Of a DNA stretch of 64,000 nt, positions 1,291 through 29,844 are shown piece after piece. The notes under the pieces are model-generated. The model ran no database searches, had not been told where the DNA came from, and worked only from the letters and a program-made list of their open reading frames with translations. The stretch covers positions 4,776,927 to 4,840,926 of the forward strand of contig KK106981.1 in the NCBI GenBank assembly GCA_000611775.1, read 5' to 3'. The position numbers and the translations under genes are program-made. The DNA is from Umbilicaria muhlenbergii (lineage: Eukaryota > Ascomycota > Lecanoromycetes > Umbilicariales > Umbilicariaceae). Position 1 is the stretch's first letter. Each line of letters starts with the position of its first letter.

Positions 1291-3060
1291 AAGATTAAAA
1301 TATAATATATCAGAACATCTTCTCCTTCATAAATTAAGTTTGAGTTAAGACAATCATGATTGAATCAGGATTAATTCATCAAAACCTCAACTTCTACTTA
1401 TTAAATCAAGCAAATAAGTGATACATTGAAAAGCTTTCACACATTCAATGATTGAGCTTATATCTTGATATCAACAGAGCTGAAAAATAATGCAAGGCTC
1501 TTGAATTACACTTTTAAGATCTTTTTAGCAAATCATTAATTATGCTTAAAATCATCTGTTACACTGTGAAAGATGCATGAAAGAACTGTGAGCCTGCCTT
1601 TTATATTAAATTCATAATCATCAATGAATGAAAAACTGAGATTATCATTACTGATTATGCTTAAGTACTTTTAACTTATGAGCACTTAAATAATGAGCTT
1701 CAGCTCACTCTCACTGAATCAACACCTCAGATTACAGTGATTAAGTTTATTGAATAATTAAACTCAAAGAAGCACGCCTGGTTTGAGATTTATGAATAAA
1801 ATCAAAGTCATATCATGATGCATTAACAGAATAATCAAGAATGTGATAATTAAAACTTTTAAACCAATGATAATTGAAGCTCTTGATTTGAAGGAAGTCA
1901 GAATGATCAGTTTAAAAACTTTTATTCTTTTTTTAACTTTTTTAATTAAGCTTTATATCAGCTCTCATATTAATCTTCTTATCATTAACTTTTTTTTCCT
2001 TCTTCAGATCATCCCCTTCAGACTTTTTCTTTTCATTTAATAAATCAGAACCTCTTATTTAATAATTATCAGCAGTGATTTACTGATATAACTGTGATTT
2101 CACTGCAAGCTTTTATTAAGAACAACAATCAACATCAGTCTCTGCAACTTATGCAAGGAAATGCAAACCTAAACTTGAATTAATATCATGAGTCATATCA
2201 GAACTGAGCTGAATCATTATATAATCAGTGAAATGAAGGAGAGTACAGGTTTAATTACTTTCAACAGATCAAAGTGTATTATGATGAGATTGTAAACTTA
2301 TACAATCACTTTGAAGACTACAAAAACAATTACTATATTAATGATCAGTTCAAGCAGGAAGACAGCTGAGTAAATTACATTATTAATTAAGTATTTTAGA
2401 ACTCAGGTTAAATATATGAAGAGAGTTTCTTTAAGGTAAATGACTTAAATAAAATTAACATTAATCACATCATAAAGCAGACCTCTTATCATTATTAATG
2501 CTGCTTAAAATTCTTCATTTTAAATAATGACCTACACAAGCACATCAGATTCAGTCATGATATTATTAAAATAAAGCAGAACTTGACCTCAGAGCTTAAG
2601 CTTAAATCAGTAATTTACTCAACAGCATTAACATTAAATGAAAACCTAGTTCAGTCAAACACTATGAACATCTCAGCCAAAGGCTATGAATTTTGAGGAT
2701 GATGTTATATAACAGTAAATGTTAAACTTTCTCAGAATAATCAAATTATTCTTATATACTTAAATATCAGCTGTATTGTTAATCTTATTAACTGAGACTT
2801 CCTCAAGAAACATGCTTTCACTGCAGAAGTTAAGAAAATAACTTTTTCAATAAAAGTTCAAGATTTAAGCTCAAGCTCTCATGTGATTAAAAATTATGTA
2901 AAATTAAATCTCTTCTTCTCAGCTGATCATGATAGAACTGCAGTTGTATATTACAAGATTCACATCATTAATGATTGAGAGATAAACATGCTCATTGAAA
3001 CTGATATTCTAGTCTCAGAGTAGATCAATGTACTCTTATCTTAATAAAAAGCAGTCACAA
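1290..3060 (+). mobile_element. Ty3/Gypsy-type gag-protease relic
   Basis: Fossil LTR-retrotransposon fragment. Conceptual translation of the + strand shows a gag-like region (about 1,300-2,400), a short Cys/His finger region (about 2,490-2,560) and an aspartic-protease-like region (about 2,690-3,030) whose end resembles the retroelement protease motif LIGTDIL. It is heavily broken, with many breaks, and I found no LTRs, RT or integrase attached. Its base composition is that of the surrounding mutated DNA, so it is old. Family assignment rests on the gag and protease resemblance only. Confidence 0.6.
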
Positions 3061-3735
3061 AAAGCTGTGAGATGTAAGAGGCTGATCTATAACATGAGGT
3101 CATATAAGTGTTGAATGAGGTATTGTAGGCAATATAGTCATGATAAAGTCAATGCAGTGATATATGTGTCTTTTATTCAGTGGCAAAACTGATCACTGAG
3201 GAAGCAGGTTTTCAAACCTTCTTGTGAAAAGTTTTCACTTGATGTCAAGATGCTAGGCGCTGAGTCATCATGTTTATATAATGTCATACTATAGTGTCAT
3301 ATTATAATGTCATATTAGTGTCATACTGTCATATTATTATATGATGACCTTGACACAGCATTTCTCTTCTCATGACATCATCTCTGAAGTCAACTGGCTA
3401 TTCATAAGCCTCATTATGACATCATAACAGTTGAGGTTGTAGGGTGATCATGTGAGACTGCATTAAAGTAAGCCTGATCATGTGCCCTCACTTAATTGTG
3501 ATGATATCATGCTGGCAGTAAGCTTTCTTCATAACACAAATATTAAATTCATCATGTTTACAGTAGGTTCAAAACACTCTTCTCTTTGTGTTTATTCTTC
3601 ATTGTTTGTCTTACAACATGTTGTTATATCTTTCACAACTTTTTCACAGCTTATTAAGTGACTTGATGACTTCATGATGTCATCCTCATTGCAGAGGTGA
3701 TCACCTCATGAAGAAACTTTCATCATATATTTAAG
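3060..3735. other. unassigned AT-rich segment with short GTCATAYTA repeats
   Basis: No gene seen. Around 3,280-3,350 a short unit of the form GTCATA(C/T)TA recurs about six times with variable spacing. The segment separates the Gypsy relic from the partial LINE copy on its right. Confidence 0.4.
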
Positions 3736-4671
3736 CTCTTGTTTTGCATTAATACTGAAGGTTTCAGCCTTATTTGATGCAATTTGACTGTTTTGTATTT
3801 CTGCGTGCTGTTTTTAACTATTTTGTGCAAATGCTGCATTTACAACTTTTTGCATTTTCCTCATGTTTTCTGCAGCTGTTTTTACACTTGCATTCACACT
3901 GTCTGTTTTGTGCAGTAGTAAATTCATTTTAGAATTTATGACCTGAATTTAGCTTTGCAAGTGGTGGTTTTGCATGTTTGTGTTCAAATTTGCCAATTGT
4001 GGACTTTTCACATTTTGTGAGTTTTGTGACTTTGTGAGGTGGAAAATTGCCTGATTTAGGTCAAATTTTTGCGACGGGTGTGATGCATTAACTAGATTTA
4101 ACAGCGCAGAATTTGCTGTTAAATACAGTGATTTCATCATTTTGTGTCTCAAATTCAGCATTTTTCCACTTTTACTCTGTTCACTGTTTTGCAGATTTTC
4201 ACAGTTTTCCTCTGAACTTTGAATTTGCATCTTCACCAGTTGACTTTCCTGTGAGGAAGTGATGTTTTTGTGTTTTTTATCTTGCAATGTGACTTTTTTG
4301 ATTTGCCTGTGTGTTTGTGAGAAGGTGAACAGGCTGTTTTAATTATTATTCATAATAAAGTAGTTTTCCTTTGTTATGAATGCTGCTGGCATAAGTGTAG
4401 GTATAGTGCACTGACTACTGTTTTCAGACTTCATGTCTGATGTTATATTCATTATAATGTTTTTTGGTGTTTTCCTGATGTTTCAGTCCTGGTGGTATCC
4501 TGAATTTACCTCAAGTTTAATATCCCTTTCTTTATAAACTCAAGCACAATCAAGAGTTTAAAGGCTTCATTTTCTATTCCTGATACTCAGAATAAGTAGC
4601 CCTTATGATTTTTAGAAATTTAAGTCTTATAAAAGCCTCTAAAATCACCTGTAGCCTGACTTAATCTGAGC
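3735..4671 (-). mobile_element. Tad-like LINE, 5' fragment (copy A)
   Basis: Reverse-strand 5' UTR and N-terminal ORF1 of a Tad-clade LINE. It is closely similar to 13,040-13,955 (copy B). Homology ends on the left near 3,735 and on the right near 4,671, just before the terminal repeat of the left hAT copy. The ORF1 part (to about 4,450) encodes a Gln/Asn/Ser-rich N-terminal region, with an uninterrupted stretch from 4,287 down to 3,949. No endonuclease or RT is attached, so this is a 3'-truncated or rearranged copy. Confidence 0.75.
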
Positions 4672-5341
4672 TTATTCTAGGCTGTCATTTGAGTCAGGTC
4701 AGGTCAAGTTAATGATTAAGAACTTGATTTATAAATTCAGCCCCTTCATGAATCTGATATTCAGTGATCAATCAGGTTAACTCTGAGGTACTTACATGAA
4801 CACTGAATTAATTATATACAGTTAAAATTGCTTAATCATCATAACTGTAGTAAGTTTAATATAAGTAATAACATCACTTTTCTTCTCATGTTATCACAGC
4901 TTTATATTGTGTTGTTATTAAAAACAGGTATTGTGATAATTGAATATTTTTACATATTTTTAATTGAATTATTAATCTGCAAAGACTGATATTATACATT
5001 GTGAGCACTGTGCAAACATGAAGAAAAACATAATATGCTAAAAAAGTAATGCTCAAAGGTAATGCTCAAAGGTAATGTTTATCTAGAATTTATGATAATT
5101 ATATACTTTTTTTTAACTTTGCAGACTGTATCTGTAGTTGATCTTGTAATGTAACTTGATGTTGATCTGCAGACAGCAATACTGATTGACTGATGCTGAT
5201 AATGATGTGTCATTCATATGTTGAATTCATAAGTTGCTTGCTTTAATTGACTACAGTTGATCTTCTCTGAGCTTCACTCCTTTATGCTGAAGTGAGGGAG
5301 GTCATCAGGTCATTAAATGATAAAAACATGTTAAAATCATC

Positions 5342-7900
5342 TTACTCTCTGCTCTCTGATACATCTTCAATCATAATAAAAGTGTCTGAGTCATTACTCT
5401 GTCTCATTTTCACTCTCATCTGATGCATATCAGCAAGTTCATCTACTCTCATATCATCTGAATCATTCATATCAGACTCATTATGATTATCACTGTTCAT
5501 TGTCACTGCTTTGCACTTGACAGAGGTAAACTTCTTTTGTTGAAATGTCTTCATGAACTCATAAGCCTTCTCATCATCTGTTATAATTAACTCATTCAGA
5601 ACAGAGGTTTTTTGAGCTCAGGTTTCAGAGGCACTGACTTTCTCATCATTGTTGTCATCATCAACAAGGTCATTCAACAAGGTGTTTTGCTCATAATACT
5701 TAATTAAACAGAGCATACATATAATCTCAGTGCTCAGATGTTCACATCATCAATTGCAGATGTCTTTAATCATATTAAAGATGCATTTCACATCTACTTT
5801 AAAAACACATACAACAAGAACATCTCTTGTCATTTAAGAGAAATCTTTGAGATCACTGTAGTTGACACTTCACATTTAGTGATGTAATTAACTCAAGCCT
5901 CATATCAGCATTATCTTTGAGCATTACCTTTAATGAATCATTGACATAATTGACTGATGTGAAAAGATATTTAAAGATATCATTTTAAGTATTTATTCAT
6001 CATTGATCCTTCAGCTCTGTTTGTTTAATTAATGCATTAAAATTCATATTCTGTGACTGACCTGCAGTGATAGTTGAGTTCATAATCAGACTCTCATATT
6101 TTGAGTAATGTAGATCATAATAATCTTGAAACTGTTGATTTTATTTAATTTCTTAAGATTTTGTTACTTCCTTCCCTTATGATGCATTAGTCATGATCAA
6201 GCAGATATATGCATTGAAGTTATTTTATACTTAATCATCTTACATGACAGGTTTAGAACAGTTGCAAGATTATAAATTCATCATTAACTTGCTTATGAAT
6301 TTTTATAATAATCCCTCAACTTATCCTGACAGGCTTTCAGGGCAGTGATCAGTTCATGCTTTTAAAGAGAGATTTTTAACTGCACTCAGCAACAGTGATC
6401 TGCAATGTGACTGATGAGTTGATTGTACATGTATCAGGTCTTATGTATTGTAACTTTAATAATTTTCAAAAGTGCTGCAGTTCAGTCTTTAAATGATTTT
6501 AATAATGTTAAAAGATAATAAACTTATTCTCATTCTGAATTAATAATTGCAAGAACTCAGAGCTTTTTATCTTGTTCATTAAGAACAAAGTTGCACAGGG
6601 CCTCTCATAAAACATAAGCTTAAAAAAGCATGTCATATATGAAATTTCATCATATCTTGATGTCCTGAATCATTCAAAGAAGTTTTTAATTTAAGTTGTT
6701 TGCATAAACTTGCTGTTGAATATCTGCAAATTGTTCAAATCTCTGTGAGAAAGAGTTGATTGTGATTGAGAGATATTGAATCTGTCACATGTTGTTAATA
6801 TTCAGACATTATCAATGAGCATTATTATTTCACTTGTCTTTTGCATGATGTTAATTAAAGATATCTTCTCTTGAATCTTTGTCAACTTGTCTGCATTTTA
6901 TATCTTTACATGATGATCATTTCTGATGTTCACATCAAGTGACCTCAGTAAAGCCTTGACAGCAAGAGTTAAAACATGTGTCATGCATGATATTGTTGCT
7001 TCAGCATTATCTCATTGAATATCATGATCATCACTCAAGACTGACTTCAGATGTGTGTGCATAATGATGTTATTCTTTAAAAGATGTTATTCATAATGAT
7101 AATGAAAAGCTTATTTTTGATTTTAAAAATCTTCAGAACATTAAGAATGTGATCTGTTAAAGTGACTTCAATATGTGACTCATTTACATGCTCAAATCCT
7201 AATAAGGCCTCATTGTAGTTTCAGTTATTATCAATGTAATAAGCAGTAACCGCCAAGAAAGATAAGTGATTATGAGATCAACAGTTTAAAGTTAATGACA
7301 TTTTATTATTTGTCTGAGCAAGACTTTCTTGTACAGTGAGCATCACTTTTTGATATCAATCTGTGACAAGGTTTCAGATTTTATTGCAGCAAGATATCTG
7401 AATGTCATCTTGAAGCATCATAAGAGTGATATGAAGCTGCTTGTTCTCAATGAATCAGAAGGAGGTGTTCATAAATATGAATGCATTAATGATTTGCTGT
7501 TCAAAGGCTTTCTTCATGTATATTAAAATGTCAAGGTTGCATACTGTTCATTTTTAAGGAATATCATAAAGGCATTAACTTTTAACATTAATACTGATAA
7601 GAAAGATAATACATAAAAAGAAACAAACTTACTGTTGACTGCAACAGTTCATTCAGTGTAGATTGTAAATGCTTTCACTTAAATGATATTTTGCAGCAGT
7701 TTGAATGCAAATGCTTTTTTATAATGCTGAAATCAGTGTTCTTCATATTCAGGTGACTGATGACAGCTTGATAAAACTTGCATTATAAGTTTAACTTTTC
7801 ACTCTGCATGACTGTGACCTGCTCAAACAGGTTTCAGTAGTTGAAGGACTGAGTAATGAATCTTCATTTAAAATTGCCTTTCAGTTTGTCATGAGTGTGA
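5342..7900 (-). pseudogene. hAT transposase (left copy)
   Basis: Transposase of the left hAT element, decayed. On the minus strand the central catalytic region (about 7,290-7,000) contains SHNHLSFLAVTAYYIDNN followed by an MNNTFNNI stretch; hAT transposases have a D-x-W-(S/T)-S...FL.(V/I)TAH(Y/W)ID box and T-x-DNASNN here. The C-terminus carries the hAT dimerisation region and an acidic Asn/Asp/Met-rich tail (5,554-5,342), with the stop codon at 5,342-5,344. Many Trp positions are TGA and the second catalytic Asp reads Asn. Several short introns are likely, so exon limits are approximate. The ORF at 7,329-7,526 on the opposite strand is a shadow. Confidence 0.75.
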
Positions 7901-8841
7901 AGATCATGTAGAGTTGACTTTCATCACTCATGAAAGAGTTTTACATATCACTTGTCACTTTTTCAGAAAACATGTGTCTTGAGAGTGTTGTGTTGAAGTG
8001 CAATAAGTGATGATGAATTTTAAAGAACATGAAGTAAAATTTAAGCATCCTCAGATTCCTGAGAGGTTTATGATTATAAAAAAGAGATGAGAATTTCTTC
8101 TGCTTCTGAGAGAGAAAAGTCATTATCATATTAAGACATATTAATAGAAGTGTATGCAGAAATTGCAGTGATGAGTGATTTGAGAAAAGAGATATTGTTG
8201 TGTAGAGAATAACTACACTTATATGCATATCAAAAGAGATGTTGAATAAATATGTTACACAGAAAACCCCCTTTACTCTTGAAAGATAATGCTGAAAGGT
8301 AATGATCAAGACACATGTATGAAACATGTGTAATCTTGCAGTGTAATTGAACAGATATCAGATTGCATGTACTTTGCATTAAAACACTCCTTTGCTCATC
8401 AAAGATAATCACTGCATTACATGTAACTCTGCAGTATTAATATTTAATCACATTTATGATGCATGAAAAAGCCTGTTTGTGCAACAAAGATGATGATCAT
8501 CTTATAAATAATCTTACAGTGACTTATGATGATCTGTTAAAGAATATTAAGCTCATTTATCTTCAGCTTATAAAATCAAGTAATTAAAAAGATGTTAAAA
8601 ATCATGAAAATGAAAGAAGTTGTGAAACAGTTGTGATTAAATGAAATTTAAGATTTCAACATGTTACTCATTTTAATAGAAATAATCATATGCTAGAAGA
8701 AACATGCTCTTTCATTATAAATTCATGACTTTAATTTTCATGTTAAAGCATGATATTATGCATCAATGAAAGTGAGCAAATGATAATGTCAGTAGGTAAC
8801 ACCTGAACCTATTATATAAATGTGCAATTAATAAAAAAAGA

Positions 8842-10000
8842 TTAAGCTTCAGCTTCTTCTTCTGATGCAGATATCTTCTCATACTTTAATTTTAAACTCT
8901 CATTCTTTTTAATATCATTCATCACAAAGTCCTCCTCATTATACATTAATAAGTTCTTCATGAAAAGTTTATAATCTGTTATTGAATCATCTTCTGACAT
9001 TTTAATAATTTTCTTCTCAATCAGCACTTCCTTCTTCACTGATTCTTTAACTGCATGAGTATTATTTTTAGCCTTCAGATCATCCTTCAACTCATTAACA
9101 TCACATGTAATGTATGCAAGAAAATGAAGATTTTTTTAAAAGTCTGTAAGCTTCTTTTTCAGGTTCTGTATTCATGTTAAAATCAAGCTCATCAGCATTA
9201 TCTTTAAGCATTATCTTAAAGTCAGCTTGCTTCAACAACTTATAATCAGCATGATATATCAGTCATTCAAGATGCTGCATAATTGAAACATTATATTTAA
9301 AAATTACCTCTTTGATCTCCTTCAACATTTATACTCATTGATCAGTAAGTAATGTCAGTAAATAATGCTCATATCTGCTTATCTTCTTCTCTTCATCATC
9401 AGCATCAGCATCATCATTATCTTCATTGTCATCTTCATTCTTTTCATCATTAATATTAATGTCTTCATCATTGTTGTTCCCTTCATTGATGTGTGTTAAA
9501 TTTCACTCAATTTTGTTACTCTTTTGCAGCAAAACTTGAAGGAACTCATCTTTTGCATCTTCATGCTTAAAGATAATCTTATTTTAAATATTCATGAGAT
9601 TTTGTTTGAGTCATTCTGTTATAAGTGTAAGTAGCTTGTAAAATAAGCATTATTTATTAACTTCACTTGACAACTTCTTCTTGAAATGTTTCACAGATTC
9701 AACTTCTCAGGCATTCTTCAACAAGACTTAACATTCATCATGATTCATTTCATTTCAACTTGATGTTACCTTTTATACTTTTCAATGACATTTCAACTTA
9801 GCCTGCTCATCTGCATTCCTAGCATGTGCAATTATAACTTGATTGTTAATTTCATTATAGCGCTTTTGCTGCTTTCTGATTATGCTTTCATGCTGACTAT
9901 ATTCACTGAGGTGCTTTTGTGAAGTGATTAATGCAGCACTTATCTTACATTGACTTGCTCATCAAGGCGTGATAAGTAGATTAATCATGATGAAGTGAGA
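8842..10000 (-). pseudogene. acidic accessory ORF of the hAT element (left copy)
   Basis: Reverse-strand coding relic sharing orientation with the transposase. The readable C-terminal part (9,090-8,842) is rich in Lys, Glu and Asp and ends in KEEVEA/EEEAEA. Upstream lie an Asp/Glu-rich tract (about 9,400-9,470) and a Gln/Lys-rich helical region (about 9,700-9,950). The same order appears on the plus strand of the right copy (17,520-18,621). I do not recognise the family. It may be a second transposition protein or a separate cargo gene. Confidence 0.5.
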
Positions 10001-10175
10001 AAAGAACTTAATTGCATCATTATTACATAAATTAATGATCTGTTTTTTATGATGTGAGTATTATCTTTGATCATTACCTTGCTTCTGACATAAAAGAGTG
10101 AAAAAGCGGGTGATCAAGTGTACTGATAAAGAAGTGATGTGAGTTAAACAGTAAGTGTTAATAATTATCATTATC

Positions 10176-10400
10176 ATTGACATATAAGCAGTACCTGAAG
10201 AAATAAGACATGTTGTTAAATGATGAAGAAGGATGAATGTTGAAGAGAGTTAATATGCACAGCTGATAAATTATTCTTTAACTTATGAATTTTAATATTA
10301 AGGCTTATGTAATTAAAAGCGCTGCTAAACAAGATCTGATGTTGATATTAATTTACAACATTATTTAAATGATGAGGTGAAGTGCAAATCAAATGATGAT
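10176..10400. repeat. segment present only in the left hAT copy
   Basis: About 225 bp with no counterpart in the right copy, where the flanking sequences meet directly apart from a small TIR element. Similar short words (ATATAAGCAG and ATGTGAGCAG) border it, so loss from the right copy by short-repeat deletion is a simple explanation. Confidence 0.5.
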
Positions 10401-11269
10401 AATGTGAGCAGAGGTGAGTTGTGCAAGAAATGTTTATATTTATGTATTTCAATCATGTTTCTGAAAACTTGTGTTAATATCACAGCATCTCACCTCTGCA
10501 GTGAATGCATCAGAAGTTAAATATTAATGTTACAACATTTCATCTTTACAGTGAATGCACTGAAAGTGTTATGTTGATCTGACAACTTAATTATAGATGT
10601 GAAATCTGCAGCTGATCATGTTCTTCTTTTCATGCACTTTAACATCCTTCTTTTACACCTCATTATTGAAGTTTCAGTTAAATAATGCTTTTAAATAATA
10701 CCTGTGATATTTATTCATGTTGATAAAGATTTGCTTCTCTTCAGATCTTCAAGCTCTGTGTACTTTCCTCATTATTTTTAATGCACATCTTTCATGTTGT
10801 TCTCTGCTTAAATACCTGTCAGTTAAATAATGCTCATAAATAATGTCTGTATTCATTCTTGATGACTGATATTTTATTATCTTCAGATTTTACACACCTT
10901 TTTGATATACTTCTTCATCTTTGATATATCTTCTCAACTTCAATGCATTTCATCACCTTCAATAAACTCATCATCTTTAATGCACTCTGTCACCTTCAGA
11001 ACTCATCACCTTCAACACATTTTATCATCTTCAACATACTCAGTCATCTTCAACTCACTTTGTTGCAATCATCATTCTCTGTCACATTCAACATATTTCT
11101 TTAATGCACCTCTTGACTCTTTTAGTTAATCATACACCTTCATCACTTTTCACAAGTATAGTTAAACAAGTTAACACTCATAATAATGCTGAAAGCTAAT
11201 GCCTACTAAGTAACTGAAGTATGATGTGTATTAAGAGTGAAGTTAAACATCTGTCAGCTGTCTCTCCTC

Positions 11270-11927
11270 CTTTTAAAAATGAGCTTCATCAAGTCAAAAA
11301 GTCAGTGAAGATCTACAAATCATCAAAGAATAAAGCTGCAGAGAAGCATCAGAAAGATTTAACATAATGATGATTAATTATATAATCTGCACCTCAAGGA
11401 AAAGGACCTGCTCACTCAGAGTAATTAAAGATTTTGTGAAAGATCAAGTCAGAAAGTAAGTTTCTCATATTAATTAATAATGTCAGAAGTTAATGCCCTT
11501 TTGCAGTGAGAACCCTTCATGAAATTAAACATTATCAGCTTATAAAAGAGCTACTTATTCTGAAAGCTGCATTTCAATATTTAATACATGAAATCATGAT
11601 TTATCTGTCAGGCATGCAGAACATTAATGTTAAAAAAATATGTTAACAGAAGACTGCTCTGCTGATGTTGCAGAAGTCAACAGAGGTGTTGTTGATTTCA
11701 TTTTTTAAGAGTAAGTTGTCTGAAATACAAAGTAATGCTAAAGTTAATACCCTCACGCAGATATCAATTTGCTCATCATTCATGAAAAGTGAGTCATTAT
11801 TCAGAGTAAAAATATGATCTTAACAAAATGTCTCTTGCTTCTTAATTCAGGTGAAAATCTTGTGCTGTATATCATTGAAATGCAGAATTCAAGGGCCATA
11901 CCTGCTTCAAGGCAGCATGATGGCTAA
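11270..11927 (+). pseudogene. histone H3-like gene carried by the hAT element (left copy)
   Basis: A spliced histone-fold gene lies inside the transposon, on the strand opposite the transposase. Exon 1 (about 11,270-11,455) encodes a basic tail. Intron 1 is 11,456-11,506 and intron 2 is 11,711-11,760 (GTAAGT...GCAG and GTAAGTT...GCAG). Exon 2 reads RTLHEIKHYQ, then ELLILKAAFQYLIHEI, then TALLMLQKSTEVLLISFF. Exon 3 continues across the splice as FKNINLLIIHEK, matching H3 FEDTNLCAIHAK, and then QSKNMILTK. It stays in frame to TAA at 11,925, giving a roughly 40-residue C-terminal extension. Loop 1 between helices 1 and 2 is about seven residues longer than in canonical H3. A few TGA codons interrupt it (including the Arg of HAKRV). 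The start codon is unresolved. The H3 relationship is clear; whether it is H3, CENP-A-like or a diverged class is open. Confidence 0.82.
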
Positions 11928-12252
11928 AGAAGTAATATCAAATGATAATGCTTAAATTGTTTCTGTAGGATAGAATACTAATGTAGTAATAAGAACATGA
12001 AACTTAAACTGAGATCACTCTGACCTGCATAAGTGATAACCTTAATGCGTAAAAGTAAAGTTTTAACTCTTGTGCAGATAAAATGCATCATGTATAAAAG
12101 CTTGACAGGTTCTGCAGAACCCTCAGTGTCTTATTTTATTACTCACTCTGACCTGACATGTCAAGGTGAGTTCAAAATCACTGAGACACTGTCACTCAAC
12201 TTGATTTAACTCAACTTGACTCAGTGTCACCCTGACCTGCAGTGACAGCCTA

Positions 12253-14016
12253 GTAATCAAATCCTTGACATTTGATGCATTGCTCATAAGGTTTGTAGTC
12301 TGTGTATTCCATGGTATGCAGTGAATTTTCAGTCATTATTAACTTAGATCTCAAGGCTTTTTCAGCCTCTTGACTGCTTGCAAAGGCAATGACTGCAGAT
12401 GAATGCTTTTTAAATTTTCTACTCTCTGCTGTAGACATTCAGCTTGATTTACACATCAATTTTAAACCTTTATTGAAGATCTCCACCTCATTTTTTAGCA
12501 ATTGCATTCCCTCTGCATTGTCAAAAATCTCTGTAGATACTTCATGTAGAATTATCTTATATCATTTCTGGTCTTTTTGCACATGAACTAGATTCAGGTT
12601 TAATTCTGGCTCTCAGATATTTTTATATTGTAATAACTCTTCTGCACTGCTCTCTTCTACTGCAGTGAGGATTATGCTATTTTGTGATCTAGAAATAGTA
12701 GCTGTTACAATCAACACCTTTGCAATTTTTGCCTTTTTCAATGCATTGTTGACTTTGTCTTGAACTTGCATTGAGTTGAAGCTTGCTGTTGCAATTGATG
12801 TTTTTGATGTTAACAGTACTCTGCGTTCCCTTTGTGTAATCTGCTTAGTCTCTTTGATTAATGCAGACTTTTGCGCCTTTTTAATCACCTCCGTCCATGG
12901 TTTATTGCTGTTTTGGGTCAACATTTGCGCAAATGTTGATTTTGAGCTTTGGTGTTTTTGAGCGTTTTCAGCATTTTCAGTCATAATGAACTCACTGAAA
13001 AGTTACCTGATTGAGCTGAATTTTTCACCATAGATTCAGGCCCTTGATTTGCATTAATACTGAAGGTTTCAGCCTTATCTGATGCAATTTAACTGTTTTG
13101 TGCAAATGCTGTATTTGCAACTTTTTGCATTTTCCCCGTGTTTTCTGCAGCTGTTTTTACACTTGCATTCACACTGTCTGTTTTGTGCAGTAGTAAATTC
13201 ATTTTAAATTTTATGACCTGAATTTGGCTTTGCAAGTGGTGGTTTTGCACGTTTGTGTTCAAATTTGTCAATTGTGAACTTTTTGTATTTTGTGGGTTTT
13301 GCGACTTTGCGAGGTGGAAAATTGCCTAATTTAGGTCAAATTTTTGCGACGGGTGTGATGCATTGACTAGATCTCACAGCGCAGAATTTGCTGCTAAATA
13401 CAGTGATTTCATCATTTTGTGTCTCAAATTCAGCATTTTTCCACTTTTACTCTGTTCACTGTTTTGCAGATTTTCACAGTTTTCCTTTGAACTTTGAATC
13501 TGCACCTTCACTGGTTGACTTTCCTGTGAGGAAGTGGTGTTTTTGCATTTTTTACCTTGCAATGTGACTTTTTTGATTTGCCTGTGTGTTTGCAAGAAGG
13601 TGAACGGGCTGTTGTGATTATTATTCATAACAAAGTAGTTTTCCTTTGTTATGAATGCTGCCAGCGTAGGTGTAGATGTAGTGCACTGACTACTGTTTTC
13701 AGACTTCATGTCTGATGTTATATTCATTATAATGTTTTTTTGATGTTTTTCTGATGTTCTGATCCTGATGATATCTTGAATTTACCTTAAGTTTAATATT
13801 CCTTCCTTTATAAACTCAAGCACAATCAAGAGTTTAAAGGCCCTGTTTTCTATCCCTGATACTCAGAATAAGTAACTCTTATGATTCTTAAAAATTTAAG
13901 TCTTATAAAAGCCCCTAAAATCACCTGTCACCTGGCTTAATCTGAGCTTATTCAAATAGAAAATGATATAAACTCACTGATCTTTACTCTTTATATATGA
14001 AATGCTTGATGAGAGT
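12253..14016 (-). mobile_element. Tad-like LINE, 5' UTR and N-terminal ORF1 (copy B), inverted
   Basis: Reverse-strand LINE part between the two hAT copies. ORF1 starts at 13,727 (MNITSDMKSENSSQ) and continues through a Gln/Ser-rich region, a PWTEVIKKAQKS stretch near 12,900 typical of fungal LINE ORF1, and the start of a CCHC knuckle (CIKCQGFDY) that is cut at 12,253 by the left hAT end. The rest of the knuckle and the following ORF1/ORF2 lie on the plus strand from 22,767. Homology to copy A ends near 13,955; 13,956-14,016 is short flanking DNA. Several in-frame stops are present, mostly TGA or TAA. Confidence 0.85.
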
Positions 14017-14341
14017 TAGGCTGTCACTGCAGGTCAGGGTGACACTGAGTTAAGCTGAGTCAGGCTGAGTCAGGTGACAGTGTCTCAGTGATTTTAAACT
14101 CATCTTAACATGTCAGGTCAGGGCAGGTAATAAAGTAAGACACTGAGGATTCTGCAGAACCTGTTAAGCCTTTATACATGATGCATTTTATTCACACAAG
14201 GGTTAAAACTTTACTTTTGCGCATTAGAATTATCACTTATGCAGGTCAGAGTGATCTCAATTTAAGTTTCATGTTTTTATTACTACACTAATATCTTATC
14301 CTACAGAAACAATTTAAGCATTATCATTTGACATTACTTCT

Positions 14342-15985
14342 TTAGCCATCATGCTGCCTTGAAGCAGGTATGACCCTTGAATTCTGCATTTCAATGATAT
14401 ACAGTGCAAGATTTCCACCTGAACTAAGAAGCAAGAGACATTTTGTTAAGATCATATTCTTACTCTGAATAATGATTCACTTTTCATGAATGATGAGCAA
14501 ATTGATATCTGCGTGAGGGCATTAGCTTTAGCATTACTTTGTATTTCAGACAACTTACTCTTAAAAAATGAAATCAACAACATCTCTGTTGACTTCTGCA
14601 ACATCAGCAGAGCAGTCTTCTGTTAATATATTTTTTTAACATTAATGTTCTGCATACCTGACAGATCAATCATGATTTCATGTATTAAATGTTGAAATGC
14701 AGCTTTCAGAATAAACAGCTCTTTCATAAGCTGATAATGTTTAATTTCATGAAGGGCTCTTACTGCAAAAGGGCATTAACTTCTGACATTATTAATTAAT
14801 ATGAGAAACTTACTTTTTGACTTGATTTTTCACAAAACCTTTAACTGCTCTGAGTGAGCAGGTCCTTTTCCTCACATCTGTAATTTAACAACTCACTCAA
14901 AAATAAGATTTTAATTAATAGTACTTTATGCGCTCAGAGCACTCTCTGAGCAGTAAATCAACTCATACAAATCTTACACTTTAAATAACTATTATACCTT
15001 CATGAATAATGAAAAACTTTTTATTGAAAAGTTTTAAATCTCTTTATTCTGTACACTTTATAAACTAAAGATTTCTTCATAAGTTTTAATTTGCAATAGT
15101 TATGAATTAAAAAACTTTTAACTAATTATAAATATATTAGTGTATTGAATAACTATTGCGCTTTTATACTTATAATATAACTTTCAGTTTATAAGTTGTA
15201 AAGAATAAGCTGTTTAAGAGTTTTCTTATACAAAGTTTCTTTTTATGTGTTGTTGTTGTTGAGTTATTCAAAAAGTCATTAAAAGTCTGTTTATTAATGT
15301 TGTGATTTTCACCACTGAAAGTTTAAAATCAATGTAACTTTTTAACAACAACAGTTATAAAAAAACTTTAAGTTATAAAACTGTTTAATAACTTCTTCTC
15401 TACAACTTATAAACTGAAAGTTATAATATAAGTATAAAAGCGCAATAGTTACTCAATATGCTAATATATTTATAATTAGTTAAAAGTTTTTAATTCATAT
15501 CTATTGCAAATTAAAACTTATGAAGAAATCATTAGTTTGTAAAGTGTACAGAATAAAAAGATTTAAAACTTTTCAATAAAAAGTTTTTTATTATTCATAA
15601 AGGTATAATAGTTATTTAAAGTGTAAGATTTGTATAAGCTCATTTACTGCTCAGAGAGTGCTCTGAGCGCATAAAGTACTAGTAACTAAAATCTTATTTT
15701 TGAGCAGGCTGCCAAATTGTGAATAATGTTTCAACACTTCATTAATAATGTATTACTTAAGGTGCTAAGAGCAGCTGTTAACTGAGACATGAGATCAGAA
15801 GCTCAGAGCGCTCAAAGTGTTAAAAACTAACTCAGAGCTAACTTGCTAAATTGCTGATGCAAGGTACAAATTATGTAATTAATCATCATCATGTTAAATC
15901 TTTCTGATGCTTCTTCACAGCTTTATTCTTTAATGATTTATAGATCTTCACTGACTTTTTGACTTAATGAAGCTCATCTTTGAAA
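14342..15985 (-). pseudogene. histone H3-like gene of the hAT element (right copy), interrupted
   Basis: Counterpart of the left-copy gene on the minus strand. The histone-fold exon reads RALHEIKHYQ, ELFILKAAFQHLIHEI and TALLMLQKSTEMLLISFF, so even where bases differ from the left copy the H3 features are kept. The same two introns and the C-terminal extension (stop at 14,342-14,344) are present. The N-terminal tail exon is split by a 985-bp TIR element at 14,875-15,859; the tail resumes to about 15,985. Confidence 0.78.
14875..15859 (-). mobile_element. non-coding TIR element M1 (985 bp)
   Basis: Bounded by CATCTGTAATTTAAC and AAATTGCTGATG, the degenerate TIR shared with four other copies in this window. 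It is flanked by CA on both sides, and comparison with the left hAT copy shows the empty site. It has no ORF of note; much of the inside is imperfect inverted repeats, including GCGCTCAGAGC-type palindromes near the end. Confidence 0.75.
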
Positions 15986-16831
15986 GAAGAAGAAACAGTT
16001 GACAGATGTCTGACTTCATTTTTAATACACATCATACTTCAATTACCTAGTAAGCATTAGCTTTCAGCATTACTATGAGTGTTGACTTGTCTAATTATAC
16101 TTGTGAAAAGTGATGAAGGTGTATGATTAGCTAGAAGAGACAAGAGGTGCATTAAAGAAGTATGTTGAATATGATGAGAAGTGATGATTATGATAAAGTG
16201 AATTAAAGATGACTGAGTGTGTTGAAGATGACAAGATGTGTTGAAGATGATGAAATGCATTAAAGGTGATGAATTTGCTGAAGGTGATGAGATGCATTAA
16301 AATTGAGAAGATATGTCAAAGATGAAGAAGTATATCAAAAAGGTGTGTAAGATCTGAAGATAATAAAATATCAATCATTAAGAATGAATGCAGACATTAT
16401 TTATGAACATTATTTAACTGATAAGTATTTAAGTGAAGGACAACATTAAAGACATGTGTTGAAAATAATGAAGAAAGTATGCAGAGCTTAAAGATCTGAA
16501 GAGAAGTAAACCTCTGTCAACATGAATAAATATCACAAGTGTTATTTAAAAGCATTATTTAATTAAAACTTCAATAATGAGATATAAAAGAAGGATGCTA
16601 AAGCACATGAAAAAAAGAACATGATCAACTGCAGATTTCACATCTGTAGTCAAGTTGTCAGATCAACATAACACTTTCAGCATATTCACTGTAGAGGTGA
16701 AATGTTGTGACATCAACATTTAATTTTCAGTGCATTCACTGCAGAGGCAAGATGCTGTGATATCAACACAGGTTTTTAAAAACATGATTAAAATACATAA
16801 ACATAAACATTCCTTGTGCAACTCACCTCTG

Positions 16832-17275
16832 CATCAGCAATTTAGCAAGTTAGCTCTGAGTTAATTTTTAACACTTTGAGCGCTCTGAGCTTCTGATCTC
16901 ATGTCTCAGCTAACAGCCGCTCTTAGCACCCTCTTGAGCACTTTGAGCTCAACCTTAAATCTTGAGCAGAACATCAAAATTTTGTGATAAAAAAACAATT
17001 ATTAAAACAATTGTTTAAACAAGTACACACACAGTGTTATAATAACAGTAAAACTTATAATAAGTAAACTTTTGCTAAAATTCACTTTTCTGCAATAAAA
17101 AATCATGATTTGTTGAGTCTGAAAGCACTGTATAAGTGTTGAGTTCTGAATATTTAAAGAACTTCAAGATTTTTAAGATTTGTATGAGCTCATTTACTGC
17201 TCAGAGAGTGCTCTGAGCGCATAAAGTACTATTAACTAAAATCTTATTTTTGAGTGAGCTGTCAAGTTGCAGATG
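16832..17275 (+). mobile_element. non-coding TIR element M2 (444 bp, internally deleted)
   Basis: Same family as M1, in the other orientation. It starts CATCAGCAATTTAGC and ends TTGCAGATG. The middle half present in the longer copies is missing. The empty site in the left hAT copy (near 10,400) shows that CTG is repeated around the insertion. The outer dinucleotides are TG and TA. Confidence 0.72.
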
Positions 17276-17519
17276 TACTGCTCACATGTTAATGATAATA
17301 ATAATTATTAATACTTACTGTTTAATTTACATCACTTCTTCATCAGTACATCTGATCACCCGCCTTCTCACTCTTTTATGTCAGAAGCAAGGTAATGATC
17401 AAAGATAATACTCACATCATAAGAGACAGATTATTAATTTATATAATAATGATGCAATCAAGTTCTTTCCTCACTTCATCATGACTAATCTACTTATCAC
17501 GCCTCAGTGAGCAGGTTGA

Positions 17520-18621
17520 TGTAAGATAAATGCTGCATTAATTACTCTGCAAAAGCACCTCAATGAATATAATCAACATGAAAGCATGATTAGAAAGCAG
17601 CAAAAGTGCTATAATAAAACTGACAATTAAACTATAATTGCACATGCTAAGAACACAGATGAGCAGGCTAAGTTGAAATGTCACTGAAAAATATAAAAAA
17701 TAACATCAAGTTGAAATGAAATGAGTCATGATGAACATCAAGTCTTGTTGAAGAATGCCTGAGAAGTTAAGTCTGTGAAATATTTTAAAAAGAAGTTGTC
17801 AAGTAAGGTTGATAAATAATGCTCATTTTGCAAGTTACTTACACTTATAACAGAATGACTTAAACAAAATCTCATGAGTATCTGAAACAAGATTATCTTT
17901 AAGCATGAAAATGTGAAAAATGAGTTCCTTCAAGTCTTGCTGTAAAAGAATAATAAAATTGAGTGAAACCTAGCATGCATCAACAAGAGGAATGATGATG
18001 ATGAAGACATTAATATTAATGATGAAGAGAATGAAGATGATGATGAAGATGATGATGAAGATGATGATGAAGAGAAGAAGATAAGCAGATATAAGCATTA
18101 CTTATTAATATTATCTACTGATCAATGAGTATAAATGTCAGAGGAGATTAAAGAGGTAATTCTTAAACATAATGTTTCAATTATGCAGCATCTTAAATGA
18201 CTGATATATCATGTTGATTATGAGTTATTAAAGCAAGCTGACTCTGAGGTAATGTCTGAAGATAATGCTGATAAGCTTAATTTTAACATGAATACAGAAC
18301 CTGAAAAAGAAGTTTATAAACTTTTAAAAAGATCTTCATTTTCCTGCATACATTACATGTGACATTAATGAGTTGAAGGATGATCTGAAGGTTAAGAATA
18401 ATACTTACATGATTGAAGAATCAGTGAAGGAGGAAGTGCTGATTGAGAAGAAAATTATTAAAATGTTAAAAGATGATTCAATAACAGATCATGAGCTTTT
18501 CATGAAGAACTTATTAATGTATAATGAGGAGAACTTTGTGATGAATGATATTAAAAAGAATGAGAGTTTAAAATTAAAGTATGAGAAGACATCTGTGTCA
18601 AAAGAAGAAGTTGAAGCTTAA
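17520..18621 (+). pseudogene. acidic accessory ORF of the hAT element (right copy)
   Basis: Plus-strand counterpart of 8,842-10,000. A Gln/Lys/His-rich helical region (about 17,540-17,800) is followed by an Asp/Glu run (about 17,995-18,075, with EDDDEDDDEDDDEE) and a Lys/Glu-rich C-terminus (18,373-18,618) ending in EEVEA and TAA. Several Trp positions are TGA. The family is not recognised. The acidic tract would suit a histone- or DNA-binding partner, but that is inference from composition and from its histone-like neighbour. Confidence 0.5.
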
Positions 18622-19599
18622 TCTTTTTTTATTAACTGCACATTTATATAATAAGTTCAGATGTTATCTACTGACATTATCATTTGCTCACTTTCATTGA
18701 TGCATAATATCATGCTTTAACATGAAAATTAAAGTCATGAATTTATAATGAGAGGGTGTGTTCCTTCTAGCATATGATTATTTCTATTAAAGTGAGTAGC
18801 ATGTTGAAATCTTAAATTTTATCTAATCACAGCTGTTTCACAACTTCTTTCATTTTCATAATTTTTAGCATTTTTTTAATTACTTGATCTTATAAACTGA
18901 AGATGAATGAGTTTAATATTCTTTAACAAATCATCATAAGTCATCACAAGATTATTTATAAGATGATCATCATCTTTATTGCATAAACAAGCTTTTTCAT
19001 GCATCATAAATGTGATCAAATATTAATACTGCAGGATTACATGTAACATGATGATTATCTTTGATGAGCAAAGGGGTGTTTTAATGCAAAGTATGTGTAA
19101 TCTGATATCTGTTTAATTACACTGCAGGGTTACATGTGCTTCATACATGTGTTTTAATCATTATTTCTCAACATTATCTTTCAAGAGTAAAAAGAGTTTT
19201 CTGTGTAACATATTTATCTGACATCTCTTTTGATATGCATATAAGTGTAATTATTTTTTACACAATAATATGTTCTTTCTCAAATCACTCATCACTGCAA
19301 TTTCTGCATACACTTCTATTAATATATCTTAATATGATAATGACTTTTCTCTCTCAGAAGCAGAAGAAATTCTCATTTCTTTTTTATAATCATAAACCTC
19401 TCAGGAATCTGAGGATGCTCAAATTTTACTTCATGCTTTTTAAAATTTATCATCATCTATTGCACTTCAATGCAACACTCTCAAGACACACATTTTCTGA
19501 AAAAATGATAAGTGATATGTGAAACTCTTTCATGAGTGATGAAAGTCAACTCTACATGATCTTCACACTCATGACAAACTGAAAGACAATTTTAAATGA

Positions 19600-22116
19600 A
19601 GATTCATTACTCAATTCTTCAACTACTGAAATCTGTTTAAGCAGGTCACAGTCATGCAGAGTGAAAAGTTAAACTTATAATGCAAGTTTTATCAAGCTGT
19701 CATCAGTCACCTGAATACAAAGAACACTGATTTCAGCATTATGAAGAAGCATTTACATTTAAATTGCTGCAAGATATCATTTAAATGAAAGCATTCACAA
19801 TTTACACTGAATGAACTGTTGCAATCAACAGTAAGTTTATTTCTTTTTATGTATTATCTTTCTTATCAGTACTAATGCTGAAAGTTAATGCTTTTATGAT
19901 ATTTCTTAAAAATGAACAGTATGCAACCTTGACATTCTGATATATATGAAGGAGGCCTTTGAACAGCAAATCATTAATGCATTCATATTTATGAACATCT
20001 TCTTTTGATTCATTGAGAATAAGCAGCTTCATATCACTTTTATGATGCTTCAAAATGACATTCAGATATCTTGCTGCAATAAAATCTGAAACCTTGTCAC
20101 AGATTGATATCAAAAAGTGATGCTCACTGTACAAGAAAGTCTTGCTCAGATAAATAATAAAATGTCATTAATTTTAAATTATTGATCTCATAATCACTTA
20201 TCCTTCTTGACGGTTACTGCTTATTATATTGATAATAACTGAAACTACAATGAGGCCTTATTGAGATTTGAGCATGTAAATGAGTCACATATTGAAGTCA
20301 TTTTGACAAGTCATGTTCTTAATGTTTTAAAGATCTTCAAAATCAAGGACAAGCTTTTCATTATCATTATGAATAACACCTTTAATAACATCATTATGCA
20401 CACACATTTGAAGTCAGTCTTGAGCAGTGATCATGATATTCAATGAGACAATGCTGAAGTAATAATATCATGCATGACACATGTCTTAGCTCTTGATATC
20501 AAGGCTTTACTGAGGTCACTTGATGTGAACGTCAGAAATGATCATCATGTGAAGATATGAAATGTGAACAAGTTGACAAAGATTCAAGAGAAGGTATCTT
20601 TGATTAACATCATGCAAAAAGTAAGTGAAATGATAATGCTCATTAATAATACTTGAATGTTAACAACATGTGATAAATTCAGTATCTTTCAATTGCAATC
20701 AACTCTTCCTCACAGAGATTTAAATGATTTGCAGATATTCAATAGCAAGTTTATGTAAACAACTTAAATTAAAAACCTCTTCAAATGATTCAGAATGTCA
20801 AGATATGATGAAATTTCACATATGACATGCTTTTTTAAACTTATGTTCTATGAGAGGCCCTGCGCAACTTTGTTCTTAATAAACAAGATAAAAAGCTCTG
20901 AGTTTTTATAATTATTAATTCAGAATGAAAACAGGTCTGTTACTTTTTAACATTATTAAAATCATTTAAAAACTGAACTGCAGCACTTTTGAAAATTATT
21001 AAAGTTATAATACATAAGACCTGATACATGTACAATCAACTCATCAATCACATTGCAGATCACTGCTGCTGAGTGCAGCTGAAAATCATTCTTTAAAAAC
21101 ATGAATTAATCACTGCCTTGAAAGCCTGTCAGGATAAGTTGAGGGATTATTATGAAAATTCACAGGCAAGTTAATGATAAATTTATAATCTTGCAACTGT
21201 TTTAAACCTGTCATGTAAGATGATCAAGTATAAGATAACTTCAATGCATATATTTGCTTGATCATGACTAATGCATCATAAGGGAAGGAAGTAACAAAAT
21301 CTTAAGAAATTAAATAAAATCAACAATTTCAAGATTATTATGATTTACATAACTTAAAATATGAGAGTTTAACTATGAACTCAACTATCACTGCAGGTCA
21401 ATCACAGAATATGAATTTTAATGCATTAATTAAACAGACAAAGCTGAAGGATCAATGATAAATAAATATTTAAAATGATATCTTTAAATATCTTTTCATG
21501 TCAGTCAATTATGTCAATGATTCACTAAAGATAATGCTCAAAGGTAATGCTGATATGAGGCTTGAGTTAATTACATCACTAGGTGTGAAGTGTCAACTAC
21601 AGTGATTTTAAAAATTTCTTTCAGATGACAAGAGATGTTCTTGCTGTATGTGCCTTTAAAGTAAATGTGAAATGCATCTTTAATATGATTAAAGACATTT
21701 GCAATTGACAGCATGAACATCTGAGTGCTGAGATTATACATATGCTCTGTTTAATTAAATATTATGAGTGAAACACCTTGTTGAATGACCTCATTGATGA
21801 TGATGACAATAATAAGAAAGTCAGCACCTCTGAAACCTGAGCTTAAGAAGTCTCTGTTCTGAATGAGTTAATTATAACAGATGATGAGGAGGCTTATGAA
21901 TTCATGAAGACACTTCAATAAAGGAAGCTTACCTCTGTCAAGTGCAAAACAATGATAATAAACAGTGATAATCATGATGAGTCTGACATGAATGATTCAG
22001 ATGATATGAGAGTAGATGAACTTGCTGATATGCATCAAATAAGAGCAGAAACAGAGCAGAGTGATGATTTAAACACTTTTATTATGATTGAAGATGTGTT
22101 GAAGAGCAGAGAGTAA
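19600..22116 (+). pseudogene. hAT transposase (right copy)
   Basis: Plus-strand transposase. The catalytic-core region near 20,210-20,450 reads LTVTAYYIDNN, then GFEHV-like (RFEHVNESH) and MNNTFNNIIMHTHL, aligning with the hAT boxes FLGITAHYID and T-x-DNASNN. The dimerisation region near 21,600-21,770 contains FNMIKDICN and HLSAEIIHMLCLIKYY, the fungal hATC pattern. The tail is acidic and ends at TAA 22,114-22,116. Most Trp codons are TGA. One possible intron runs from GTAAGTGAAATG near 20,620. The N-terminal boundary is approximate, and a BED-type finger was not confidently seen. Confidence 0.77.
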
Positions 22117-23039
22117 GATGATTTTAACATGTTTTTATCATCTGATGACCTGATAACTTTTCTCACTTCAGCATAAAGGAGTGAAGCTTGAAGAAGATTA
22201 ATTGCAGTCAGTTAAAGTAAGCAATTTATGAATTCAACATATGAATGATGCATCATTATCAGCATCAGTCAACCAGTATTGCTGTCTGCAGATCAACACT
22301 GAGTTGTGTTATGAGATCAGCTACAAATACAGTCTGCAAAGTTAAAAAAAATATACAGTCATCATAAATTCTAAATAGACATTACCTTTGAGCATTACTT
22401 TTTTAGCATATCATGTTTTTCTTCATGTTTGCATAGTGCTCACAATGTATAATATCAGTCTTTACAGATTAATAATTCAATTAAAAATATATAAGAGTAT
22501 TCAATTATTATAATATCTGTCTTTGATAACAACACAATGCAAAGCTGTGATAACATGAGAAGAAAAGTGATATTATTACTTATATTAAACTTACTACTGT
22601 TATGATGACTAAGCAATTTTAATCATATATAATTAGTTCAGTGTTCACATGAGTACCTCAGGGTTGACTTGATTGATCACTGAATATCAGATTCATGAAG
22701 AAGTTGAATTTATAAATTAAGTTCTTAATCATTGACCTGACCTGACCTGACTCAAATGACAGCTTATTGATCACACACAGCATAAGTGCACGCATGAAGT
22801 CAAATGCCAAATATGTGCTGAAAATCATTATATCAGGAAGCACACGTGCTTTATTTACAAAAAGAGACAAGAAATATGCAGTCACACAATAATAAAGTGT
22901 GCAAATTGCAAAGAAAATCACCAGGTGAATAGCAAAGACTGTGAATATTACAAAGCAGTTGAACCTTATTCAGCAGACAGAGACTCTTTAATCATGAATG
23001 AATAATGTGTAATATAAACACACAATATTCAAACACAGA

Positions 23040-26000
23040 CCTGCAGGAATTATTTAAAATACAGATTTTTCAACATAACTGCAATAAATCAACAAATGCT
23101 ATGCAATCATGTCTAGAAGCTGCGGTGGGGAAAATAAATATTATGTTAATTCAAAAACCATGAATTGAGTTAAATAACAGTATTATTTCATACTCAGCAT
23201 TTACTAGCATTATCTCAACGTCAGAACTCAAACCATGAGTTTTAACATTTATTACAAAAGCAAACAAAGGAATAAAATGCACGCCTAGATCAGATATATC
23301 AAAGAATGCAGATTTACAAGCTCTGTTTATTTCTGCATCAGATTTAAAAGAAATTCTACAGTTGAATGTATATAATAAAAAGTCTCTTCAGCCTGAATTA
23401 AATACATGAACAATGAAAAGAGCATTAAGTCAAATAAGTGCAACAAATAGAACATTAGTTTGTGAAGACTTTAATGCACATCATGCATGATGAAATTCTA
23501 CAATCACAGAGGCAAAAAATGCAGAAAGTTTATTACAATGACTGCAAACAAATCACTGTGATTTAGTCAATATATCAGACGTCATGACATTCATTAAACA
23601 TATTGTAAACAGACAATATTCATCAGTTCTAGATTTAACATTTGCAACAAATCAATTAATACTGAAAATAATTGATTGACAAGTTAATGAAGAAGTGTAT
23701 ACTGATTTAGATCATGAGATTATTCAGTTTTTCATAATTACTGAAAACCTTACACTGATGAAAAGTTCTTTCAACGCGCTATTCAATATACAAAAAGCGG
23801 ATTGAGAGAACTTTACAAAGGAATTACAGCAAAATGCAAAAGTAATAAGTTTAAATCAATCATTAGAACAAATGGCTGAAAACTTAAGAGACTTAATTGC
23901 ACAAACTGCAGAAGACAATATTCCTAGATGTAAATCATGCAACAAATCTAAAGTATGATGAATGGAAAACCTCATCAGGCTAAGAAAAGAAATGTTAACA
24001 GTAAAAAGACATTACAACAAGCATGATCAATCTGAAAGACAGTGAATTAAATTCACAACAAGCAGATCTGAGTACTTTCAAGTTATTAAAAATCCTGAAC
24101 AACATTTCTTACAGAAGCAAGTGGAAAAGATGTATTTTAAGCATATAAATACACAAAGCCACGACTTATAAAGAAAATACCATCAATACAAGATCAAAAT
24201 GATAGATTATGTCAGGAATTTCAAGACAAATATCAAGCATTCATTACAGCAATGTATTCAGAACCTTCTACAGTTGAAATTAAGAATAATCAAGACACAA
24301 TACATGTAAATTGATCAGACTTAACAGAAAATAAAATTAAACAAGTTATATTTACATCCTTCACAAAGAAAGCATCTGAATCAGATGATATTTCCTTTGC
24401 TATTATTCAAAAAGCATATCAGGCAATATCAGAATTAATGTTTACAATTTATAAATAATTAATTCAAGCAGGCTTTCACCTGAAATGTTGATGTCAAGGC
24501 ACAGGTGTTATTCTAAAAAAGCTGAGAAAGTCAGATTATTCAAAACCAAAAGCTTACAGAATAATTACATTATTAAACTGTTTAAGCAAAGTGGCAGAGA
24601 AAATCCTGACAACTAGATTATTATATTTAAGTCAAGTCACAGACTTATTAGATCAAGATTAAACTAAAGAAAGAAAACAAAGATCAGTAATTAATGCAGT
24701 ATTAACCTTAACACATGATATAGAATCAGCTCAAAACAAAGGAAATGTTCTATCATGTTTATTACTAAACGTCAAGGGAGCTTTTGATCATGTATCACTA
24801 CTGCAATTACTCTCAATTATGAAGAAATTGAAGTTATCAGTACAAATACAATCATGAACAAAATCCTTTCTAGAAAATAAAAAATCAGGATTAACCTTTG
24901 ATGATGAAAGACAAGAAATGCAAAAAATCAAAACAGGAATTTCACAAGGATCATCAATATCCTCAATACTGTTTTTGATATATATAAGGCATTTATTCTC
25001 AAAAATCAAGGCCAAATTCTCAGATATGAAAAAACCCAGCTATATAAATGATGTGACACTATATATTACTGGAAAATCAGCTGCAGAAAATTGTTTAAAA
25101 TTATAATCTGCAGCTGAAACAGCCTTCTTATGAGCAAAAACAAACACAGTACAGTTTAATGACAATAAATTTAAATTAATTCACTTTGAAAGTCAAGAAA
25201 ACCTGTGGAAAACAGTATTACACTACTAAATGACACGGTGATAAAATCAGTCAAAGAAGTCAAGTGGTTAGAAGTTTGACTAGACAGAAAACTGAACTTC
25301 AAAACACATGTTCAAAAAAAAGTCTCCACAGCAACAAGAGTAATGCACTTAATAAATAAATTAACAAACTCAGAATGAGGTCTTTCAGCCAAAAATACAA
25401 AACAACTCTATCAAGCATGCATTACATCAATTAGTGACTACATCAGCAATTTAGCAAGTTAACTTTGAGTTAATTTTTAGCACTTTGAGCGCTCTGAGCT
25501 TCTGATCTCATGTCTCAGCTAACAGCCGCTCTTAGCACCTTCTGAGCGCTTTGAGCTCAACCTTAAATCTTGAGCAGAACATCAAAATTTTGTGATAAAA
25601 AAATAATTATTAAAACAATTGTTTAAACAAGTACACACACAGTGTTATAATAACAGTAAAACTTATAATAAGTAAACTTTTGCTAAAATTCACTTTTCTG
25701 CAATAAAAAATCATGATTTGTTGAGTCTGAAAGCACTGCATAAGTGTTGAGTTCTGAATATTTAAAGAACTTCAAGATTTTCACCACTTAAAAATTTACA
25801 CACTTTAATAACTTTTGCACCTCAACAGATATGAAGAAACTTTCAATGCATAAATTATAAAAAACAGTATTATCTATTAATGTTAAATTAAAAGTTTCTT
25901 CATAACTGCTATTGTTGTTAAGTTATATTTAATTCAAGTTTTCAACAGCGAAAAATCTTTCAAAAAAAGTCACATACTTTGAATAACTATTGCGCTTTTA

Positions 26001-29585: not shown

Positions 29586-29844
29586 TATAATTATATTGAA
29601 GGACAATTATTTATTTATTTTAACAGGATTAATTTTTTTTAAAATATAATATATTAAAAATTAACTAAATACTTCTTTATTAAGAGATATATTAAACTTC
29701 TTTGAGAATAATACTCAAATTTAATAACTTTTAAGACTTATATACTTTGAAGTTATAATAATTATCATGTTTACTTTTACCTTTATCACTTTTAAAATTA
29801 TTAAGAATTTTCTTTAAGTTTTTATTTACCTTAAAGTATTATGT

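Follow-up and report, generated by a model that had tools for sequence, protein, structure and literature searches.

The DNA analysed here, which we call the window, is a stretch of 64,000 nucleotides from the ascomycete Umbilicaria muhlenbergii (contig C1, 4776927–4840926), and the searches covered 34.8 Mb of its genome in 7 contigs. The first part of the window (0–48000) is AT-rich, with 24–33% GC in 4-kb steps, a CpG observed/expected ratio of 0.01–0.21 and no depletion of CpA. At 48000 the composition shifts abruptly: from there to 64000 the DNA has 38–46% GC and CpG at 0.57–0.65 of expectation. Two hAT elements in opposite orientation were found in the window, and each carries a histone H3-like gene (H3L). 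They align with each other in three pieces at 87–93% identity. The terminal sequence TAGGCTGTCA is exact at both ends of element 1, and the far end of element 2 has it with one mismatch. The features are as follows.

4678..12252, plus strand: hAT element 1 (family D, see below), 7575 bp, with TAGGCTGTCA ends
4678..4687, plus strand: left terminal inverted repeat of element 1
6087..7827, minus strand: decayed putative hAT transposase, located by tblastn with the transposase frames of element L069
8842..9877, minus strand: central frame with an acidic stretch, read with X at stops
11386..11455, plus strand: 3' part of H3L exon 1, which encodes the basic tail
11456..11506, plus strand: H3L intron 1, phase 1, in codon 45, predicted from GT..AG borders and frame
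11507..11710, plus strand: H3L exon 2, helices alpha-N, 1 and 2, with a stop common to all 30 aligned copies
11711..11760, plus strand: predicted H3L intron 2, phase 1, in codon 106
11761..11834, plus strand: H3L exon 3, to the end of alpha-3; the frame continues to about 11927
12243..12252, minus strand: right terminal inverted repeat of element 1
14017..22766, minus strand: hAT element 2, inverted and interrupted by other repeats at about 14873–15861 and about 16833–17274
14342..14508, minus strand: H3L exon 3 of element 2, translated as L040, placed by the alignment of 11397–12252 to 14872–14017
14559..14762, minus strand: H3L exon 2 of element 2, placed by the same alignment
14874–15719, 25439–26368, 28689–29588 and 42589–43715: partly palindromic repeat pieces

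Element 2 is broken up by this partly palindromic repeat family, the pieces of which are 82–97% alike. Another repeat flanks the elements in two copies that are 89% alike (3718–4677 and 12613–13953); its minus-strand frames, of 129 and 135 residues, have a retrotransposon-like look, which is an impression only.

A sequence-only reading of this DNA had proposed that both elements contain, at the same internal place, a spliced frame with the H3 fold, and this was borne out by our alignment and by comparisons with PF00125 and the PDB. The joined exons 2 and 3 of element 1, with X at two stops, matched the PF00125 profile at E=2e-8 and 34.9 bits, over the cut-off of 26.4 bits, and in a PDB search they retrieved solved H3 chains from E=1.2e-9. 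Given that helices alpha-N, 1, 2 and 3 are present in the H3 order and that the profile score exceeds the cut-off, the exons encode a histone fold. The alpha-3 helix (VIIQSKNMILTK), which the earlier reading did not mention, was also found in the window H3L. The exon borders proposed at 11,507–11,710 and 11,761–11,927 hold, and the removal of intron 2 yields FKNINLLIIHEK, which fits the H3 counterpart FEDTNLCAIHAK. The helix boxes that had been quoted for the gene are correct for element 2 but not for element 1, which reads RTLHEIKHYQ and KAAFQYLIHEI. The aligned H3L rows retain H113 (H3 numbering), which we take to have a role in the H3–H3 contact. Exon 2 of element 2 corresponds to a protein-query match at C1:4791477–4791683. 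Neither window copy was among the matches of the genome-wide PF00125 search, in which two sister copies of the same family fell just below the cut-off, at 25.8 and 25.2 bits. A partly altered protein query from this family gave 56 genome matches; a sister family (E 6.5e-8) and the host H3 (E 4.3e-4) are among them. The window H3L is a genuine but decayed histone H3-like gene.

Copies of the element and its other genes

Across the genome, the DNA of 11,397–12,000 is matched 37 times at 84–100% identity, and some of these matches are fragments of one copy. Thirty of them, taken with their flanks, were used for the flank analysis: in 28 the alignment comes within 8 bases of the element end, 24 of these reach the last base, and the 28 end-reaching copies have 27 different flanks, L049 and L050 sharing one. 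These matches and flanks agree with the earlier view that the H3-like gene belongs to a hAT family and is not a host pseudogene at a single insertion. Two hAT features, short terminal inverted repeats and an 8-bp target duplication, were found. A full-length sister of the same length as element 1 (C1:3987476–3995049) is flanked by a perfect 8-bp duplication, AACTTAAC. Such a duplication is present in two of the six elements with both ends readable, namely this sister and a 672-bp derivative (L004), and was not seen at the other four: window elements 1 and 2, C3:1257367–1266069 and the derivative L008. Both L004 (C1:573690–574361) and L008 are short 672-bp elements with TAGGCTGTCA ends, 48–50% GC and retained CpG. 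They are probably internal-deletion derivatives that escaped decay, perhaps by virtue of their shortness.

The window transposase was recognized when the transposase frames of L069 were compared with it by tblastn (E 2e-23 and 6e-10). L069 is another H3L-carrying element, of family A, with a PF05699 match nearby, and its transposase is related to L070, an intact hAT protein of 785 residues (E 1.4e-14). About 3 kb of L069 between its H3L and its transposase (2153–5106) read N. Pfam gave no match for the decayed window frame, and no PF05699 match lies within the window; the DUF659 profile matched nowhere, controls included, and is hence uninformative. The window transposase is probably of a decayed, divergent hAT type and lies inside an H3L-carrying element.

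The central frame has 35 matches in the genome. At 29 of the 37 H3L DNA matches it lies on the opposite strand, 1.9–3.3 kb away (27 different frames); for 8 of the 35 frames no H3L lies within reach. No Pfam family scored over its cut-off, and the best PDB match reached only E 0.58. Its acidic stretch (9383–9487) holds 18 D/E in 34 residues; that the product is a histone chaperone would be a guess from this stretch alone.

Five H3-like families, their introns and their divergence

The H3L genes of this genome fall into five families, A, B, B', C and D, of which D is that of the window. The genome-wide PF00125 search gave 44 matches, host histones among them. A family A query gave 64 matches, 16 of which are A copies (79–98% identical); it also finds copies of B, B', C and D, as well as the host H3 and CENP-A. 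Four of the 16 A copies have a PF05699 match in the same divergent layout, 5.3–5.6 kb from the H3L, and the remaining 12 have no such neighbour among the 13 PF05699 matches listed. The termini of family A, about TA[C/T]GGTGGCTGTTGAG, differ from those of D. At C2:6621700–6630134 (L016, L019, L032, L023, L071), four H3L genes stand on the same strand in the order B-C-B'-C, adjoined by a divergent hAT transposase-like frame; element ends were looked for at this B/C locus and not found. Contig C3 has four PF00125 places with a spacing similar to that of this row, the two examined being C and B', and contig C5 has two partial H3L sets. In families A and D and at the B/C locus alike, the H3L is divergent from the transposase.

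In all five families, codons 45 and 106 are each interrupted by a phase-1 intron, as predicted from the GT..AG borders and the H3 frame. In the host H3, phase-1 introns split codon 44 and the Q of VTIQSKD, and codon 106 is uninterrupted; the intron of the host CENP-A lies at another place, after SRLV. Since the host intron in codon 44 is just a codon apart from it, intron 1 may derive from the host. That five families share two positions, of which the host H3 lacks one, does not resemble the outcome of separate transcript captures.

The divergence between the families shows coding constraint. For exons 2 and 3, the amino-acid identity of all 10 family pairs (0.33–0.66) is above that of each of 500 random placements of the substitutions, a control that ignores multiple hits, and third codon positions differ more than first and second positions in 10 of 10 pairs (Fisher p 0.038 to 1.4e-5). 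As dS is saturated or undefined for every pair except B–B', a rate ratio is available for that pair, whose members lie 2.7 kb apart in one locus: NG86 gave dN 0.23 and dS 0.87, and the ratio was 0.37 by maximum likelihood and 0.61 by YN00, the latter being weaker than NG86 or maximum likelihood. Judged from these substitution patterns, the constraint between families speaks for a past use of H3L.

Within the families, the picture is one of decay. Two family A copies differ chiefly at first and second positions, the pattern of unconstrained decay, and in family D transitions account for 311 of the 313 polymorphic columns. Outside CpG, the base next to the C/T columns of D on the 3' side is T in 53 cases, A in 42, C in 21 and G in 1, so that the present decay is not CpA-specific. 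In D the codon before alpha-2 is a stop in all 30 aligned copies (TAA in 23, TGA in 7), which indicates that the source copy was already broken when the family spread, and this shared stop speaks against H3L being needed for the spread of D. A 21-base GT..AG stretch around the stop was considered as an intron; it fits the H3 spacing, but introns here have about 50 bases, and it is not claimed as one. Family A has a stop at the codon after REIK in 11 of 12 aligned copies. All 12 also have one in the tail frame, 30 codons upstream of intron 1, which may fall outside the gene. One copy each of A (L028), B (L012) and B' (L022) is open from exon 2 to the end of alpha-3; an H3L intact from start to end was not demonstrated among the copies examined in the genome.

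Relatives and published elements

Open H3L relatives with Met at position 106, as in B, B' and C, were found in Monilinia laxa, two Talaromyces and Trichoglossum (P0003, P0076, P0124, P0125). They represent Leotiomycetes, Eurotiomycetes (two) and Geoglossomycetes, the class of Talaromyces pinophilus being assigned by genus and the other three by species record. In the alignment search 8000 of 8000 scored candidates passed, mostly ordinary H3s, and the best 120 added little beyond P0076; none of the matches listed came from Pyrenophora or Pseudocercospora. Two candidates, P0001 (Schistosoma mekongi) and P0002, were rejected as H3L, being close to ordinary H3.

The final tree has 24 rows, after P0005, P0006, P0126 and P0127, which were long or unclear, had been dropped from 28. 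The transposon rows and the four outside relatives stand on one side of a branch with 85/72 support, which is not significant. The best tree, like the 28-row tree, places the transposon rows in two groups, and the test does not reject their union in one clade (p 0.28). The outside relatives are joined by B, B' and C at 77/70, with A and D apart; the latter two are long branches, which the program warns may join. A grouping of the transposon rows with CENP-A was rejected (AU p 0.0015) in a test with one CENP-A row and with groups defined after the 28-row tree had been seen, and this result speaks against a centromeric variant.

The assumption of the sequence-only reading that DNA transposons are not known to carry histone genes does not stand: two reports describe H3-carrying hAT elements, from Pyrenophora in 2013 (PMC3538342) and from Pseudocercospora, Cercospora and Sphaerulina in 2019 (PMC6710886). 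The window element is therefore not a new kind. As in the published elements, an H3-like gene lies at one internal place between hAT ends in many copies. The Pyrenophora tritici-repentis element likewise has a transposase, a central frame and an H3-like gene between terminal repeats, is multi-copy, and carries an H3L that is neither ordinary H3 nor CENP-A, as here (PMC3538342). It is described there as about 5.6 kb long (and 2.3 kb), with 26 near-identical copies that are mostly open and have ESTs, whereas the present element has 7.6 kb, is decayed and belongs to one of five families, a comparison made by description and not by sequence. In Pseudocercospora fijiensis and its relatives the elements are also hATs with 8-bp duplications and one or two H3-like genes per element, and hundreds of decayed H3-like copies lie in AT-rich blocks; they were read as separate captures of an intron-less transcript, with CpA-type RIP (PMC6710886). 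In contrast, the U. muhlenbergii genes have two predicted introns and up to four H3L per locus, with CpG nearly gone and CpA not depleted. An insertion of 16 residues is reported for the second Pseudocercospora copy, and it may represent an intron left unspliced.

Accessory genes for chromatin or DNA marks beside a transposase, for which an anti-silencing role is proposed, also include the TET/JBP genes of fungal DNA transposons, VANC and SET, as presented in PMC12730594. These are enzymes or regulators, whereas H3L would be a part of the nucleosome, and the likeness drawn here is one of function. The open-licence part of PubMed Central, which leaves out most subscription journals, yielded no account of introns shared between families, of loci with four genes or of selection acting on a transposon H3L. 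The present work adds the five families, the four-H3L locus, the shared introns, the constraint between families and open relatives in three fungal genera.

Origin and possible role of the H3-like gene

We tentatively prefer the reading, to which we give a little less than an even chance, that H3L is one old transposon-borne H3 variant, taken up a single time by the hATs of filamentous ascomycetes and once useful to the element. A hAT lineage would have taken up the H3 gene long ago and would have retained it beside the transposase, in divergent orientation, as the element diversified into families. The gene, presumably spliced and expressed, would have kept the H3 fold and altered the tail. 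Most likely, its product would have paired with the host H4 and been deposited in nucleosomes that favour the element, for example by lacking the tail marks needed for silencing. A wider version of this reading appears unlikely: it would make H3L the selected protector or preparer of the DNA of one hAT lineage across ascomycete classes, join it to the central frame as chaperone in a three-gene cassette with one four-H3 branch, and reduce the published captures to one event.

The strongest competitor, a real possibility which we nonetheless consider doubtful, is that hATs copied pieces of H3, perhaps repeatedly, as useless freight. In its favour are the stops shared by the D copies (30 of 30) and by the A copies (one codon, 11 of 12) and the transition-type decay within families, seen in D in 311 of 313 columns; the published papers mostly take this view, and the reading of independent captures (PMC6710886) points the same way. 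Against it are the constraint seen in every one of the 10 family pairs, even between B and B' at one locus, and the two common intron positions in five families, one of them foreign to the host H3.

Improbable, in our view, is an old family of host H3 paralogues that was picked up by hATs more than once. The constraint could then predate several captures and have acted in a host gene, and to that extent the case for selection within the element is weakened. The outside relatives, open proteins on long contigs whose surroundings lay outside the comparison, would suit such a family, as would the grouping of B, B' and C with them apart from A and D. Against it stand the divergent layout common to A, D and the B/C locus, where the transposases are related, and the constraint that persists between the duplicates B and B' within one locus. 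Finally, that the frame is no histone at all, but a chance likeness or a host pseudogene of one insertion, is scarcely credible, for although the frame is decayed and the window copies are absent from the genome-wide PF00125 matches, this account is refuted by the PF00125 and PDB E-values, the 37 DNA matches and the 27 flanks.

If H3L was kept by selection, as the reading of a single old uptake proposes, a mobile element would have been building its own nucleosomes, unlike the known anti-silencing genes, which are enzymes or regulators. Moreover, the published inference of independent intron-less captures becomes testable with existing sequences. H3 evolves very slowly, and diverged natural variants that keep its fold can therefore reveal which residues and tail marks matter. 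One further H3-like stretch was placed in none of the five families: it lies at C1:2171851–2172006, is 38% identical to A (E 1.9e-6), and its match is free of stops.
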